Positions 28,519 to 34,257 of a DNA stretch of 34,312 nucleotides are shown here, piece after piece. The notes under the pieces are model-generated. The model was not told where the DNA came from. It did no database searches and saw only the letters and a list, made by a program, of their open reading frames with translations. The stretch is from Armatimonadota bacterium. GTDB taxonomy: Bacteria; Bacillota; Desulfotomaculia; Desulfotomaculales; Nap2-2B. Numbering within the stretch: position 1 is the first letter of the stretch; each line of letters opens with the position of its first letter. The position numbers and the translations under genes were made by a program. Location: contig JAIMBK010000034.1 in the NCBI GenBank assembly GCA_023511535.1, positions 1-34,312 on the forward strand, in the 5' to 3' direction.

Positions 28519-28668
28519 GTATTTCTCCCAGAGAATCCCGGAGTCTTCTGGCGGGCGTGCTGCGCGCGTTCAGACCTTCCCTTGTTTTTTGTGCTGATTC
28601 CTTAAGGTGTGTATATTAATCCTGGACGTCTATAAAAAATTATTAATAGAGTAGGGGGGTATTTGCCC

Positions 28669-30003
28669 TTGACCACGAACGCTTCCACCTATGCCGAGCT
28701 TGAGGCGAAAACTCTGCAGGAGCTTTACAAAATTGCCAAAGAACTGGAAATCGGCGGCTACTACCGGCTTCGAAAAAAAGAGCTGATTTACGAGATCATC
28801 AAGGCGCAGACGGAGAAGACGGGTCTTATGTACGCGCAGGGCGTCCTGGAGATCCTGCCCGACGGCTACGGGTTCTTAAGGCCCTTCCAGTATCTTCCCA
28901 GCCAGGACGACATTTACGTTTCTTCTTCGCAGATCCGGCGCTTCGACCTGCGGACGGGCGATCTGGTGGCCGGGCTGGTGCGCGGCCCGAAGGAAAACGA
29001 GCGTTACTTCGCCCTTCTGCGCGTCGAGCAGGTCAACGGCGTGAATGCCGAAGACGCTTCCGAAAGGCTCCATTTCGACGGTTTGACCCCCCTTTACCCC
29101 CAGGAGCGCATCAGGCTGGAGACGGCGCCGGACAACTATTCCGCCCGGATTATCGATCTTTTGGCTCCCGTCGGCAAGGGCCAGCGCGGCCTGATCGTTT
29201 CCCCGCCCAAGGCCGGAAAAACCACTCTTTTAAAGGAGATTGCCAACAGCATCACGAAGAACCACCCGGAGATCCACCTTCTCGTTTTGCTGGTGGATGA
29301 GCGGCCGGAGGAAGTGACCGACATAGAGCGCTCGGTGAAGGGGGAGGTGGTCAGCTCCACTTTTGACGAGCCCCCGGAAAACCACGTGAAGGTGGCCGAA
29401 ATGGTCCTGGAGAGGGCCAAGCGCCTCGTGGAGCACAGGCGGGACGTGGTCATCCTGCTGGACAGCATAACCCGCCTGGCCCGCGCCCATAACCTGGTCG
29501 TCCCTCCCAGCGGGCGGACCTTGAGCGGAGGCATGGATCCTGCCGCCCTGCACAAACCGAAGAGGTTTTTCGGCGCCGCCCGCAAGGTGGAAGAGGGGGG
29601 CAGCCTGACCATCATGGCCACCGCCCTCATTGAAACGGGCAGCCGCATGGACGACGTGATTTTTGAAGAGTTCAAGGGCACCGGGAATATGGAGCTGATC
29701 CTGGACAGGCGGCTGGCCGAGCGGCGGATTTTTCCGGCTATCGACATTCAGCGCTCGGGGACGCGCAAAGAAGAGCTGCTCCTCTCCAAGGAGGAGCTTG
29801 AGTGGATCTGGTATTTCCGCAAAGCCACGGTCAACATGGCTCCCTGGGAGGCAATGGAAATGCTCATCGATAAGATGAGAAAAACAAAATCCAACGAGGA
29901 AATTTTGCTCGGGTTCAAAAACGCCCTGCGCAAGGCCGGGCCTGTGGTCATTCCCGACCGCCCGCCGGACATTCGCCGGGAACTCTCCCCCGCGGGAAGT
30001 TAA
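28669..30003 (+). CDS. rho: transcription termination factor Rho
   Basis: This 444-residue hexameric RNA helicase ends transcription at Rho-dependent sites. The N-terminal helical domain (about 10-50) is followed by the cold-shock RNA-binding domain ([15 protein letters not shown]), Walker [10 protein letters not shown] (178-186), [11 protein letters not shown], Walker [15 protein letters not shown] and the secondary RNA-binding loop [20 protein letters not shown]. Length is typical of Firmicute Rho without a large insertion. TTG 28669 is chosen over TTG 28663 because the GGGGGG at 28654-28659 is then 9 bases away. It completes the syntenic fba-tal-rho order, but murA and glpX, usual in Bacillus, are absent, as is rpmE after it. 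Confidence 0.96.
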
Positions 30004-30079: not shown

Positions 30080-30478
30080 TCAGGCCAGATTGTAGATACC
30101 CAGGATTTTTAACTGCTTTTGCTCTTTTAGGAGGATGTCGCAGAGGTTTAAATCCAGAAGGTTGCACAGGGCGGCAAGGTAAAAAAGCAGGCGCCCCAGC
30201 GCCGTTTCTACCGCGTCGCGGCACTCGGCGCACATTTCGCCGAGCAGGTGGGAATCGAGAAAATTTTTCAGATCGGCGAGGGAAAGGTCGGAGGGGATTT
30301 CTTTTTTCCCCGCCTGAATTTTCAGGCAGCCGCAGCCGGTCACCGTCCTGATGACAACCCTGTTCAGCCGGGCGTTTGCCTCCTGGATCTGGGAAAGGAT
30401 GTCCAGCACGCTTTTGTTGCAGACCAGCACTTCGGAAACCGTATTTTGAAAGTCGTCGTAGATGAAATCTTTGAGCAA
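30080..30478 (-). CDS. conserved Clostridia protein with paired cysteines
   Basis: This roughly 132-residue protein starts (TTG) with LKDFIYDDFQNTVSEVL and contains TVTGCGCLKI (CxC) and GEMCAECRDAVE (CxxC), ending LCNLLDLNLCDILLKEQKQLKILGIYNL. It resembles a conserved family of Gram-positive anaerobes whose C-terminal helices recall MazG-like proteins and which is often left uncharacterised (some members carry a DUF1573 label); I cannot confirm the domain. Two Cys pairs could bind metal. TTG 30478 is chosen because GGGGGCGG lies 9 bases upstream; the open frame extends to 30652 across the promoter, which is not coding. It is a single gene facing rho. Confidence 0.75.
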   Translation of the reverse strand: MLKDFIYDDFQNTVSEVLVCNKSVLDILSQIQEANARLNRVVIRTVTGCGCLKIQAGKKEIPSDLSLADLKNFLDSHLLGEMCAECRDAVETALGRLLFYLAALCNLLDLNLCDILLKEQKQLKILGIYNLA

Positions 30479-30517
30479 AAGGGGCCGCCCCCTTTTTAGA
30501 TTTTGTCCTTCGCTGTA

Positions 30518-30547
30518 ATTATACAAGGGGGGTCCTTGTCCTGTCAA
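30518..30547 (-). promoter_or_regulatory. consensus promoter of the Cys-pair gene (minus strand)
   Basis: On the minus strand TTGACA (30547-30542) and TATAAT (30523-30518) are perfect matches with an 18-base spacer. Transcription should begin around 30511, about 33 bases before the TTG start. Confidence 0.85.
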
Positions 30548-30610
30548 ATATTTTAAGGACGGACGGCCCTTTAGCGGGCCGTTTTGGCCGCCTGCGCCCC
30601 GGCCCAAAAT

Positions 30611-30650
30611 AAAAATAGTAACGTCCCGGCAAAAATAGAAGCGTCCCGGC
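30611..30650. repeat. two-copy 20-base tandem repeat
   Basis: Two adjacent 20-base units (30611-30630 and 30631-30650) differ at two positions. Each ends in CGTCCCGGC. A degenerate third unit leads into the terminator stem, suggesting the terminator arm and the repeats share an origin. Confidence 0.7.
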
Positions 30651-30653
30651 AAA

Positions 30654-30694
30654 AAATCCCGTGCCCCGGTAAAATGAACCGGGGCACGGGATTT
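30654..30694 (-). terminator. strong terminator of the first Hsp20 gene
   Basis: A perfect 17-base-pair stem (arms 30654-30670 and 30678-30694, with a 7-base loop) lies 39 bases beyond the Hsp20 stop. On the minus strand the stem is followed by a T-run (TTTTTT). On the plus strand it is followed by TTAATTTCTTTTT, so it may work in both directions. Confidence 0.9.
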
Positions 30695-30732: not shown

Positions 30733-31428
30733 CTACTGGGCTACGTTTATTTTCACCTTGCGCCTGGTGGCTACGTCGGACTTGGGGGCCCTGATCTCCA
30801 GAATGCCGTTGGCGTAAGTGGCTTCGACCTGTTCGGAGCGGATGCTGGTGGGGAGCGCAATGGTCCGGAACAGGCTCGTCGGCCTGTTGCCCGCCCAGGC
30901 GGTGGCCGAGATGGTCATGGAGTCGTCGGTAACGGTTAGGCTGAGGTCGTTTAAGCTGACGTTGGGAAGCTCGCAGGCCACCACAACGTCGCTGTTGGTC
31001 TCCGCCAGGTCGACCCGCATCTGGGCCATTCCAGCCGACGACTGGATTGTCTGGGCGGGTACCCAGGCTGCCGCGCCGGCGGGGTTGAAGAACGGGTTTA
31101 CGGACGCTCCGGGGATCAGGCCGGCGGTGGTCATGGCCGGGCTAAAGGCCAGCGCCTGGCTGAGGAAGGGGTTTATGCCTGCGGGCATTGCCGCCCCCAC
31201 GGCCAGCTGACCCGGAAGGTTTATGGCCGAGAAAGGATGAAGAAGCGGGTTTTGGGCGATAAAGGGGTTTATTCCCATGGCGGCGGAACTGAGCGCCGGG
31301 TTGAAGGAGTAGGTGACGGTCGTCCCGGGCATTCCGGTGCGCAACGAAACAGGAAAGGCCGTCGCCCCGCTTTGGAAGCCCTGGCTGAACGCCACCGTCT
31401 GGTTAGGATTGAGTGTGGAAATGTACAC
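30733..31428 (-). CDS. Hsp20/alpha-crystallin protein with NPF-rich N-terminal arm
   Basis: This 231-residue small heat-shock protein has an alpha-crystallin domain in residues about 135-231 (MRVDLAETNSDVVVACELPNV.., SLFRTIALPTSIRSEQVEATYANGILEIRAPKS). The first 130 residues are a long hydrophobic, Pro/Ala/Asn-rich arm with repeated motifs: GINPF at 52-56 and 84-88, NPLLHPF at 60-66 and VNPFFNP at 110-116. Most bacterial Hsp20 arms are 30-50 residues, so this is unusual and may drive assembly or substrate binding. The GTG start follows GGAGG by 11 bases. A second Hsp20 gene lies 1.5 kb away on the same strand. Confidence 0.9.
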   Translation of the reverse strand: MYISTLNPNQTVAFSQGFQSGATAFPVSLRTGMPGTTVTYSFNPALSSAAMGINPFIAQNPLLHPFSAINLPGQLAVGAAMPAGINPFLSQALAFSPAMTTAGLIPGASVNPFFNPAGAAAWVPAQTIQSSAGMAQMRVDLAETNSDVVVACELPNVSLNDLSLTVTDDSMTISATAWAGNRPTSLFRTIALPTSIRSEQVEATYANGILEIRAPKSDVATRRKVKINVAQ

Positions 31429-31509
31429 CGAAAACCAATCCTCCTTTTAATTAAGTAGGGTTTTTCTTAGTTTGTTTTTTTTCGGGCGCCGTTATGCAAA
31501 AACAAAAAG

Positions 31510-31538
31510 CATTCTTGTTGCGCCGGGCAAAAAGAATG
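31510..31538 (+). promoter_or_regulatory. inverted repeat between divergent Hsp20 and SDH_sah genes
   Basis: CATTCTT (31510-31516) and AAGAATG (31532-31538) form a 7-base inverted repeat with a 15-base spacer in the shared upstream region. It is shorter than the CIRCE element and does not match it. It could be an operator controlling one or both genes. Confidence 0.4.
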
Positions 31539-31581
31539 TTTTCCGGGCGGCGGTGAATACTAATCCAGAGGTGGATTGATT

Positions 31582-32568
31582 TTGAACCGCGAAAAAAGAT
31601 TAAGGGTGATCCAGAAGATTGCCAGGTTGAGAGAATCGGCTCTTTTGTGCTACGTCACCGGTGACCGGGAGAATGTCAACACGCGCATAGCCCCCGACGT
31701 TACGCCCTTTTTTTACCGTCACCTGGAGATGATCGGGAAAAGAAAAAGGATAGACCTTTTTCTTTACACGCGGGGCGGGGATATTTTGACTCCCTGGCGT
31801 CTCGTTCACCTCATCCGGGAGTATGCTGACGAGTTTAACGTCCTCGTTCCTTTCCGGGCCTACAGCGCCGGCACTCTGATCTGTCTGGGGGCGGACGAAA
31901 TCATTATGGGGAAAATGGGGGAGCTGGGTCCGATCGACCCCAGCGTGGTCAACGCCTTTAACCCGCAGGACCCGGCGAACCCCGCCGCCCGGATTCCGGT
32001 GAACATCGAGGACGTATATTCATATCTCACTCTGGCCAGGGACGAGGCCGGGCTGCGCAACGAGGCGGATCTGAGCAAGGCCTTTCTTCTCCTGGCGGAA
32101 AGAATCCACCCCCTGGCTCTGGGGAATGTACACAGAAATTACCTCCTCATCCGTTCGCTGGCCAAAAAACTCCTGGGCCTGCGCAAAAACTGCAGCGATC
32201 CGGACGAAGTGGGAAGAATCGTGGATCACCTTACCGAGAAGCTTTACGCCCACAACCACATGATCTCCCGGCGGGAAGCGGCCGAAGAAATCGGCCTTCC
32301 CGTGGTCTACCCGGCCCGCGAACTGGAAAGGCTGCTCTGGGAATTGTACCAGTATTACGTTGAAGAGTTGTCTTTGGACGAGCCCTTTAGCCCCGCTCAG
32401 CTGCTTAAAGGAGCGCGGACGGAATTTACCGTCGCGGGCGGTTTGGTTGAGTCGGAATACGGCCAGGACGCCTTTCTTTTTTCGGGAGTGGTGGAAAGGC
32501 GGGATTTTCCGGATGCCGGGCAGATCTGCGTGAATATTTTAAAGCAGGGCTGGAAAACAGTAATATAA
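31582..32568 (+). CDS. SDH_sah-family (ClpP/SppA-class) serine protease-like protein
   Basis: This 328-residue protein matches the SDH_sah (serine dehydrogenase proteinase) family of the ClpP/crotonase superfamily. Key visible features are IDLFLYTRGGDILTPWRLV (oxyanion-type glycines, about 58-75) and the nucleophile Ser95 in FRAYSAGTLICLGADEIIMG, followed by GELGPIDPSV. Members lack a signal peptide and may be cytosolic or membrane-associated proteases. The C-terminal third is helical with RREAAEEIGLPVVYP. TTG 31582 is chosen because AGAGGTGG at 31567-31574 is then 7 bases upstream. It sits between two Hsp20 genes, suggesting a protein-quality-control role by context only. Confidence 0.85.
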   Translation: MNREKRLRVIQKIARLRESALLCYVTGDRENVNTRIAPDVTPFFYRHLEMIGKRKRIDLFLYTRGGDILTPWRLVHLIREYADEFNVLVPFRAYSAGTLICLGADEIIMGKMGELGPIDPSVVNAFNPQDPANPAARIPVNIEDVYSYLTLARDEAGLRNEADLSKAFLLLAERIHPLALGNVHRNYLLIRSLAKKLLGLRKNCSDPDEVGRIVDHLTEKLYAHNHMISRREAAEEIGLPVVYPARELERLLWELYQYYVEELSLDEPFSPAQLLKGARTEFTVAGGLVESEYGQDAFLFSGVVERRDFPDAGQICVNILKQGWKTVI

Positions 32569-32610
32569 CGGCGCGCGAAAGACCGGAAGAGAAAGGGGAG
32601 TGCCTTTTTT

Positions 32611-32856
32611 GTGGAGGAAGAAGTAAGACCTGTTGCGGAGGTTAGATATTTCGGCCCGCCGGGGGCCGACTACTATTACCTGGTGGCCGGCGCTTCCGGC
32701 TGCCCTTCGGCGGATTTCCGGTATCCGGGATATTCCGGCGGCAAAAGCGCGCTGGTCGTTTTGCAGGTGCGCGGCAACAGCGCCGGCCCCGCCCTCCCCG
32801 CCCCCGTTCCCTCCCTGGTGCCGGAAGTGCCGGTAATGCCGGAGGTTCTGGAGTAG
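32611..32856 (+). CDS. small unknown protein (81 residues)
   Basis: I do not recognise this protein. GTG 32611 is preceded by GGGGAG at 32595-32600 (10-base spacing), 42 bases after the SDH_sah stop. The product begins MEEEVRPVAEVRYFGPPGAD followed by YYYLVAGASGCPS and ends in a Pro/Val-rich tail (PAPVPSLVPEVPVMPEVLE). The regular position, ribosome site and same-strand spacing favour a real gene co-transcribed with the SDH_sah gene. The composition of the tail is low complexity, so caution is needed. Confidence 0.5.
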   Translation: MEEEVRPVAEVRYFGPPGADYYYLVAGASGCPSADFRYPGYSGGKSALVVLQVRGNSAGPALPAPVPSLVPEVPVMPEVLE

Positions 32857-32908
32857 GCCCGCCGGGACCCGCGGGCAAAGGATGGGCATAGGCCGACTTT
32901 GCCGGCTT

Positions 32909-33316
32909 TTAAGTTCTCTGCTTCTTGGGGAAGCGCACTTCCAGAAGTCCGTGCCGGTAGTCGGCGCTGATGTTTTCCAGGTCGACGTTGGCCGGAGGGG
33001 TGAGCAGGCGGAAGAACGTGCCCTTGGGCCGTTCCTGGTACAGAAAAGAGGCTTTTGCGTACTTTTCGGCAGTTTCCAGCGGCGCCCGGACGGTCAGTTC
33101 CCCGGGGGAGACCTCAAGATCGATCTTATCGGGGTCCGCTCCGGGCAGTTCAAAAAGGTAAACTATGTGGCCGTCGGCATCTACGATGTCAACGCGCGGC
33201 AAAACGCCCTGATTTGCGGCCGGATGCAAAAAGGCATAACTGGAAATGCCGGAGGTGGCCTGGGCGGCAATCGACCAGGGGTCGCCGGCCGGAATATTTT
33301 GCGAAAAATCACCCAT
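32909..33316 (-). CDS. second Hsp20/alpha-crystallin small heat-shock protein
   Basis: This 135-residue protein has a 40-residue N-terminal arm (MGDFSQNIPAGDPWSIAAQA), then an alpha-crystallin domain: PRVDIVDADGHIVYLFELPGADPDKIDLEVSPGELTVRAPL, FLYQERPKGTFFRLLTPPANVDLENISADYRHGLLEVRFPK. It ends shortly after the domain without a clear I-x-I tail (PKKQRT). The ATG follows GGGAAGGGA. It is distinct in sequence from the NPF-rich Hsp20 and probably an ATP-independent holdase. It is divergent from dapB. Confidence 0.93.
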   Translation of the reverse strand: MGDFSQNIPAGDPWSIAAQATSGISSYAFLHPAANQGVLPRVDIVDADGHIVYLFELPGADPDKIDLEVSPGELTVRAPLETAEKYAKASFLYQERPKGTFFRLLTPPANVDLENISADYRHGLLEVRFPKKQRT

Positions 33317-33489
33317 AAACTATCCCTTCCCCGCCTTTTCTTTATTTTTTTTTCGTTATTATTTCTTTTTGGCACAAAGATTATGCGGCGGCAGCCGTTT
33401 GTAAGTTTTTTGCAGCCAGAAGGTATCCGGCGTTTTTCGGCGAAACATATCTAAAAAAATCCAGCGGAAGCGACAGAGGGGGAAGTTGT

Positions 33490-34257
33490 TTGGCGATTAA
33501 CGTTCTGGTTGCCGGAGCCCTCGGTAAGATGGGCCGGGAGGTCTGCAAAAGCGTCCTGTCCGCCGCCGATCTCCGGCTGGTGGGGGCGGTTGACGTGCGG
33601 GGCGAAGAACAGGACGTGGGCGTTGTCGTTGGCGCCGGGGAAACCGGTGTGCTGGTGGCGAACGACCTGGAAGAGGAGCTGGAAAGAAAAAGGCCCGATG
33701 TTATGGTGGATTTTACCAGGCCCGATGCCGCGGCGGCCAACGTGAAGGCGGCCCTTTGCCGCAGGGTGCGGCCGGTTGTCGGTACGACGGGGATGGGCGG
33801 CGAAGAGCTGCAGGAGATCGTCGAGATGGCCGAAAAGCTCCGGATCGGCGGGATAGTTGCCCCTAATTTTGCCATCGGGGCCGTGCTGATGATTCATTTT
33901 GCCGCCGAGGCGGCAAAATATTTCCCCTGCGTCGAAATTATCGAACTTCACCACGACCAGAAGCTGGACGCTCCTTCGGGCACGGCTCTGGCGACCGCCG
34001 GGGCAATGCTGCGGGTAAGGGGTGGGTTTGGAAGGGAGCCGGCGGCGGCGGAAGTCGAAAAGCTGCCCGGAGCGCGCGGGGGGCTTTACGAGGGCGGCGT
34101 GAGAGTGCACAGCGTCCGCCTGCCGGGGCTGGTCGCCCACCAGGAAGTAATCTTCGGCGGCCTCGGTCAGACCCTGACCATAAGGCACGATTCCATTTCC
34201 CGGGAATCCTTCATGCCCGGCGTGCAGCTGGCCATCCCTTTAGTAAAAGTCGCGTAG
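33490..34257 (+). CDS. dapB: 4-hydroxy-tetrahydrodipicolinate reductase
   Basis: This enzyme reduces dihydrodipicolinate in the lysine/diaminopimelate pathway, which also supplies dipicolinate for spores. The 255-residue protein shows the Rossmann motif VLVAGALGKMGRE near the start, VDFTRPDAAAANVKAALCR, VVGTTGM, and the catalytic/substrate region IELHHDQKLDAPSGTAL, with RLPGLVAHQEVIFGGLGQTLTIRHDS near the C-terminus. TTG 33490 follows AGAGGGGGAA with 9-base spacing. Length is typical. Confidence 0.96.
   Translation: MAINVLVAGALGKMGREVCKSVLSAADLRLVGAVDVRGEEQDVGVVVGAGETGVLVANDLEEELERKRPDVMVDFTRPDAAAANVKAALCRRVRPVVGTTGMGGEELQEIVEMAEKLRIGGIVAPNFAIGAVLMIHFAAEAAKYFPCVEIIELHHDQKLDAPSGTALATAGAMLRVRGGFGREPAAAEVEKLPGARGGLYEGGVRVHSVRLPGLVAHQEVIFGGLGQTLTIRHDSISRESFMPGVQLAIPLVKVA

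Follow-up and report, generated by a model that had tools for sequence, protein, structure and literature searches.

The 34,312-nucleotide stretch considered here (the window) comprises positions 1 to 34,312 of contig JAIMBK010000034.1, forward strand, in GenBank assembly GCA_023511535.1, filed as an Armatimonadota bacterium and placed by GTDB in the order Desulfotomaculales of the phylum Bacillota. Near its end lie four genes: one for a long Hsp20 protein of 231 residues (Hsp20L; positions 30733-31428, minus strand; PF00011 at 33.7 bits, cut-off 20.8), one for an SDH-type serine protease of the ClpP fold (31576-32568, plus strand; PF01972 at 58.1 bits, cut-off 31.3), an open reading frame (ORF) for a small protein of 81 residues for which family searches gave no match (32611-32856, plus strand), and one for a short Hsp20 protein of 135 residues (Hsp20S; 32909-33316, minus strand; PF00011 at 45.3 bits, cut-off 20.8). 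An earlier note on this DNA had described two dissimilar Hsp20 genes around a protease-like gene and an 81-residue ORF, and these positions are borne out, as is the dissimilarity of the two Hsp20 proteins, which in a single comparison are 28% identical across 92 alignment columns (E 2e-11). The reading developed below, held with slightly more belief than doubt, is that the four genes constitute a protein-care module that endospore formers express in the forespore and in which a holdase pair would be combined with a protease and its small partner protein.

The genome to which the window is assigned harbors two SDH loci, two full-length rho genes (window 28663-30003; G000:C107:7657-8883) and one pnp, and for this reason the contig of the window may represent either a paralogous region or a piece of a relative's genome binned by mistake, two cases between which its composition does not discriminate. 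The conclusions are carried by the many other loci rather than by the window locus. The second SDH–small ORF–dapB copy of this genome, on contig C50, encodes an SDH protein 82% identical to that of the window and continues into dpaA, dpaB, asd, dapG and dapA; no Hsp20 genes were seen in it.

Conservation and genomic context

When 113 genomes of the order were searched with the SDH protein of the window, matches at E ≤ 0.001 were obtained in 90, many of them short and about 40% identical, and strong matches (E ≤ 1e-76) in 72, three of which are partial (G099, G055, G111). Leaving these three aside, 70 SDH loci, the window included, were read from 69 genomes. SDH and the small ORF are a conserved pair, usually found inside a sporulation/dipicolinate operon: relatives of the small ORF adjoin SDH in 63 of the 70 loci, and dapB, the first lysine/dipicolinate gene downstream (33490-34257, plus strand, in the window, with the contig end directly after; TIGR00036 at 248.6 bits), follows in 65. 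Among the five loci without a downstream dapB, contigs L064 and L071 end too early, and L045, L054 and L073 have SDH elsewhere. The usual cluster reads pnp, polysaccharide deacetylase, M16 peptidase, dut, a 114-residue protein of no assigned family, ymxH, SDH, small ORF, dapB, dpaA, dpaB, asd, dapG and dapA. One representative each of ymxH (TIGR02888), dpaA, dpaB, the M16 peptidase, the dUTPase and the deacetylase was confirmed in Pfam or NCBIfam, the remaining names being assigned by sequence and by place in the operon. Downstream of dapA, RNase J was identified in the one stretch tested, and TepA-like CLP_protease genes were seen in three of the six stretches read.

Hsp20L is present at 12 and Hsp20S at 15 of the 70 loci, with Hsp20S at every locus that has Hsp20L; a further Hsp20S stands at the partial locus L188, a contig of G099 outside the 70. 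Full-length Hsp20L was found in 12 of the 113 genomes, each time at the SDH locus, all other matches covering the domain only. At L059, where the Hsp20L gene is absent, a stretch of 27 residues remains that is 96% identical to an Hsp20L, a remnant that hints at the loss of a gene present in an older state.

The association extends to genomes outside the order. Among named genomes, 84 relatives of SDH were found, 80 of which were kept, and 23 loci lie outside the order (L163-L187 minus L170 and L186). These include records of Moorella, Dethiobacter, Fuchsiella, Natroniella and Candidatus Frackibacter, and metagenome bins, the titles of which are possibly wrong. Both Hsp20 genes stand beside SDH at 18 of the 23, Hsp20S only at two (L171 being cut by the contig end) and neither at three (in L187 the contig ends inside SDH); within the stretches covered, several of them on short contigs, neither ymxH nor dapB was found at any of the 23. 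Four gene orders occur: Hsp20L–SDH–small–Hsp20S in the order; SDH–small facing Hsp20S–Hsp20L in Moorella and others; Hsp20L–Hsp20S diverging from SDH–small in the Fuchsiella group; and Hsp20S–Hsp20L diverging from SDH in L177. The first three were also seen in a sample of 398 genomes of the phylum. Many of the genomes used are metagenome bins, and the counts, here as in the order, ignore relatedness. In the phylum sample the SDH profile matched 43 genomes at E ≤ 1e-30. Of these, 31 score at least 233 bits; the other 12, with scores of 110-135 bits and shorter frames, were set aside. Hsp20L was found at 181.9 bits or more in 24, the next match scoring 86.9. SDH and Hsp20L occur together in 17 genomes, where 1.9 would be expected from the 31 and 24 carriers (Fisher 2e-16). 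With this excess and the recurrence in four gene orders, the co-conservation on which the proposal of a cluster in the earlier note depended is upheld.

In one family of the phylum sample (f45), the Hsp20 pair is flanked by a three-gene block in all six loci read; in L213, the one tested, the block consists of GerA, Spore_permease and Spore_GerAC, that is, germination genes (gerABC). In four of the six (L212, L213, L215, L216), the pair lies between histidine-biosynthesis-like genes, recognized by eye, and gerABC-like genes.

The SDH-type protein and its small partner

By comparison with the genus-mate L044, the TTG at 31582, giving 328 residues, is a more likely start of the window SDH than 31576. 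PF01972 is matched by all 41 SDH relatives compared (E ≤ 0.01), its alignment to the window protein being confined to residues 47-127. The CLP_protease family PF00574 was not matched, the window protein (E ≤ 1) returning only PF01972 and NfeD1b_N, and the 41 members likewise (E ≤ 0.01). With NF047768, the SDH family Clp fold serine proteinase, the window protein scores 67.3 bits and does not reach the equivalog cut-off of 250. Window SDH thus shares the nucleophile region with PF01972 and NF047768; a C-terminal part not shared with them and the small partner gene set it apart as a separate subfamily. In Foldseek, an AlphaFold2 model built with 41 sequences (mean predicted local distance difference test score, pLDDT, 83.2) retrieved SppA and ClpP (11 rows at E ≤ 0.001, the best, SppA, at 2e-4), and in a VIA structural match 1510-N and ClpP tied at Z 11.6, with root-mean-square deviations of 3.5-3.7 over 174-177 residues. 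A search by sequence for a solved relative found none, the best of five rows (E 0.47) being apparently unrelated. From SppA and the stomatin-specific protease 1510-N/NfeD, its top structural matches, SDH differs in that its tested neighbours are not stomatins and a fixed lysine at position 113 is not seen.

The conserved nucleophile-type serine is the feature from which protease activity is predicted. Ser97, within the nearly invariant YSAGT motif, is present in 41 of 41 sequences, as are GGD, His49, His178, His226 and several aspartates, and the median ratio of nonsynonymous to synonymous substitution rates (dN/dS) is 0.118 (91 pairs from 40 of the 70 loci). That the protein might instead be a ClpP-fold scaffold or binding protein draws on the distance of its score from the curated SDH cut-off and on Lys 113, which is present in just 32 of 41 sequences, so that a fixed Ser-Lys pair is not seen at this position. 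Against the invariance of the serine, GGD, the histidines and several aspartates, this explanation appears highly improbable.

A further parallel is offered by TepA (YmfB), a ClpP-fold protein of the dpa region of Bacillus subtilis, reportedly a sigma-G-linked protease needed for the removal of small acid-soluble spore proteins (SASPs) in outgrowth. TepA and SDH are alike in ClpP fold, operon region and sporulation link; they differ in that SDH matches PF01972 rather than PF00574 and that TepA-like genes are present in addition to SDH in half of the downstream stretches read.

Judged by its sequence, the 81-residue ORF is a real gene under purifying selection, since its relatives so regularly adjoin SDH and their median dN/dS is low (0.161, 48 pairs). 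Its conserved core reads Y-x-L-T-x-x-SGYPSA-x-F ... L-V/I-V/I-P-E, in which the L-V/I-V/I-P strand resembles a strand motif that docks on alpha-crystallin domains. The predicted structure of the protein alone is unreliable (mean pLDDT 59.1) and supports no claim about its fold.

The Hsp20 pair

Hsp20L consists of an N-terminal part of about 135 residues, rich in proline, asparagine and alanine, followed by an alpha-crystallin domain; its relatives are conserved at an N-terminal 'NP.Q' and along the domain. By virtue of this domain both proteins are putative holdases, and both evolve under constraint (dN/dS 0.148 for Hsp20L, 26 pairs; 0.13 for Hsp20S, 8 pairs). The Hsp20L profile gives 119-178 bits with Hsp20L proteins outside the order and at most 61.5 with three unlinked Hsp20 proteins of the window genome, whereas the split is narrower for the Hsp20S profile (78.8-108.3 bits, against at most 74.7 for unlinked Hsp20 proteins). 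A second Hsp20 gene adjoins Hsp20L in all 23 Hsp20L genomes read of the 24 in the phylum sample. Small heat-shock proteins are also found in the B. subtilis spore coat, CotM being an example. CotM-type proteins share the alpha-crystallin domain with Hsp20L and Hsp20S; they are products of mother-cell coat genes, in contrast to the latter, a fixed pair beside a protease with forespore-type elements.

Promoter-like elements

The regions upstream of SDH (172 bases each, 12 of them within the gene) contain the pattern G-n-HATAMTA in 58 of 70 loci of the order, compared with a mean of 1.98 in shuffled regions. Elsewhere it was found upstream of Hsp20S (9/15), of dapB (9/65) and, in zero to two regions each, of ten other control genes. 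At the corresponding site the window has AATACTA (31556-31562, plus strand), 19 nucleotides before the likely SDH start. A two-part pattern, GYATA-N14..18-HAWAMTA, lies upstream of Hsp20L in 10 of 12 and of Hsp20S in 9 of 15 regions, against 1 of 70 for SDH and 2 of 631 for eleven control genes. In the window its counterparts are the forespore-type promoter-like elements GCATAA ... CAAACTA of Hsp20L (31468-31497, minus strand, 39 nucleotides 5′ of the start) and GCATAAT ... AATAATA of Hsp20S (33357-33386, minus strand, 40 nucleotides 5′ of the start). As a positive control served 30 SASP genes of the order (the 30 loci listed, out of 106 genomes with matches, starts placed by match coordinates), upstream of which CATAMTA occurs in 15 of 30 regions against 1.0 in shuffles. 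When the −35 part was relaxed and the spacing matched to the SASP genes, the pattern YATAA-N16/17-HAWAMTA was found upstream of SASP genes in 17/30, Hsp20L in 10/12, Hsp20S in 5/15, SDH in 10/70 and controls in 3/631 regions. Taken as sequence patterns, the elements of the Hsp20 genes are thus SASP-like, and SDH has a related −10 element with an upstream G.

According to PMC3789822, sigma-F and sigma-G promoters are very similar, the former being marked by a conserved G before the −10 element and the latter by an A after it. Given the G upstream of its −10 element, the SDH promoter may be of the sigma-F type or may be read by both factors. The same paper places dpaAB under sigma-K and has tepA of Clostridioides difficile in its forespore table, directly ahead of the sigma-G members.

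Heat-shock elements were sought as well. In the window, the controlling inverted repeat of chaperone expression (CIRCE) was not found with up to three mismatches, and three CtsR-like matches, each with 3 mismatches, lie in other parts of it, where 2.5 would be expected. The 158 regions examined upstream of these genes contained neither CIRCE (four mismatches allowed) nor CtsR boxes (two allowed), and an HrcA/CtsR heat-shock regulon was rejected as a candidate. The interpretation as a stress-linked degradation unit, advanced in the earlier note, consequently stands as regards a proteostasis cluster and gives way as regards heat stress: sporulation is more likely, because the elements resemble those of sigma-F and sigma-G, CIRCE and CtsR boxes were not found, and the genes lie in dipicolinate-operon or gerABC contexts. 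Hsp20 proteins and proteases are families typical of a vegetative heat-shock or general stress unit; with the boxes missing, the CtsR-like matches of the window at chance level and the promoter-like elements of spore type, such a unit has very little chance of being the right explanation.

The inverted repeat that the same note had noticed in the divergent region between Hsp20L and SDH is present (31506-31521 and 31527-31542, without strand; 88% complementary). Conservation and a regulatory role find no support, since one of 30 shuffles reaches its score and in none of 11 other divergent regions is the same repeat the best one; as an operator, this window-only repeat was rejected.

Other features of the neighbourhood

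Just past the end of Hsp20L, a sequence scan found a perfect 17-base-pair hairpin (30654-30694, strand unassigned), terminator-like on the plus strand according to the scan; inspected by eye on the minus strand, the hairpin closes with a run of six Ts, of which three belong to the stem. Beyond it, an ORF of up to 190 residues with cysteines (30080-30652, minus strand) gave no Pfam or NCBIfam match above cut-off (PF24028 at E 0.1) and is preceded by a perfect TTGACA-18-TATAAT at 30547-30518. The contig end (34258-34312) holds an inverted repeat, cttctcccttcgggagaag, seen by eye and perhaps a dispersed repeat at an assembly break. Within the operon, the 114-residue protein between dut and ymxH (cluster c9mem, e.g., L118:6035-6376) is found in 62 loci and is membrane-like by eye; one member tested matched no Pfam or NCBIfam family. 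Of 65 loci of the order (L043-L111), 43 have TTGACAT upstream of dapB against 1.6 expected, an indication of a separate, conserved promoter within the operon.

A possible role in the forespore

The gene families, the conserved association, the sporulation contexts and the conserved promoter-like elements are observed, and the protein-care module put forward at the outset is built on them. Hsp20L and Hsp20S, a fixed and dissimilar pair, would be produced in the developing spore and would keep hold of partly unfolded proteins as the core dehydrates, lies dormant or is heated, while the SDH protease, made with the small protein, would clear proteins that cannot be rescued, in late sporulation or outgrowth. 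Forespore expression and its timing are suggested by the upstream elements, and the functional link between holdases and protease is the weakest step.

Several results weigh against this reading. Neither Hsp20 gene was seen at 55 of the 70 SDH loci of the order (contigs L064, L071 and L073 among them end close to SDH), and conversely 7 of the 24 Hsp20L genomes of the phylum sample, all of family f45, are without this SDH; each half is therefore dispensable to the other. Hsp20L is likewise absent from three of seven SDH-bearing genomes of genus g68. The second Hsp20 of f45 reaches 71-80 bits with the Hsp20S profile, overlapping the 58-75 bits of unlinked Hsp20 proteins, so that its orthology with Hsp20S is unsure. 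The presence of SpoIVA in 31 of 31 SDH genomes, compared with 340 of all 398 (P 0.006, relatedness ignored), speaks for a link to sporulation, yet the association is modest because SpoIVA is so common. In the Moorella thermoacetica record L182, SDH is kept and no Hsp20 pair was seen beside it, which speaks against a simple link to heat resistance. As to the promoters, the patterns were chosen after the sequences had been seen, and the comparison with controls for this reason outweighs any P value. The SDH-type −10 pattern G-n-HATAMTA is upstream of none of the 12 Hsp20L genes, and the SDH element of the window is weaker than those of most relatives, lacking the G two bases before. The positive control failed both for G-n-HATAMTA (2 of 30 SASP genes; shuffled 0.92) and for the two-part GYATA pattern (2 of 30; shuffled 0.19). 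Outside the order, the YATAA pattern is weak (SDH 4/23, in a set that includes one member of the order, L170; Hsp20L 5/18; Hsp20S 1/20).

Part of this evidence serves the strongest rival, in which two separate spore functions share a regulon: SDH and the small protein would be a TepA-like protease of outgrowth or quality control, the Hsp20 pair a protectant, and the two would be neighbours because forespore genes cluster. In its favour are the one family in which the Hsp20 pair adjoins gerABC-like genes and this SDH is absent, the SDH–small pair standing without visible Hsp20 genes at most loci of the order, the TepA-like ClpP-fold genes in the same operon, and the difference between the elements upstream of SDH and Hsp20L. 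However, SDH and Hsp20L lie at most 1.1 kilobases apart in 16 of the 17 genomes with both (12 kilobases in the other), and their association persists across four gene orders and varied neighbourhoods, an outcome rarely produced by regulon sharing alone. Separate functions are thus a genuine possibility, albeit one that is probably not correct.

To our knowledge, the protection and repair of proteins in the dormant, dehydrated spore core are poorly understood. Spores of Moorella thermoacetica are very heat-tough, as stated in PMC8745062, and those of Desulfotomaculum have been studied after serial autoclaving (PMC4817712). The main text of PMC8745062, on the spore proteome of M. thermoacetica (1018 proteins), makes no mention of heat shock, crystallin, chaperone, SDH, TepA or Hsp. 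No description of the gene set was found among the matches listed in the open literature (titles and abstract beginnings), subscription papers being mostly outside this scope.

The protein-care module thereby points to a route of protein care in heat-resistant spores that has so far gone undescribed, and the conserved holdase-plus-protease set with its spore-type elements supplies named, deletable genes. A bolder version, to be regarded as unlikely, pictures a proteostasis machine of the spore core: the Hsp20 pair would store heat-damaged proteins in the dormant core, the small protein would couple the pair to SDH through its L-V/I-V/I-P strand, and SDH, a ClpP-fold protein with no partner ATPase in sight, may act ATP-free and clear aggregates on waking, before ATP is available. 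If true, such a machine could add to the extreme wet-heat resistance of spores in Moorella and Desulfotomaculum-type lineages.

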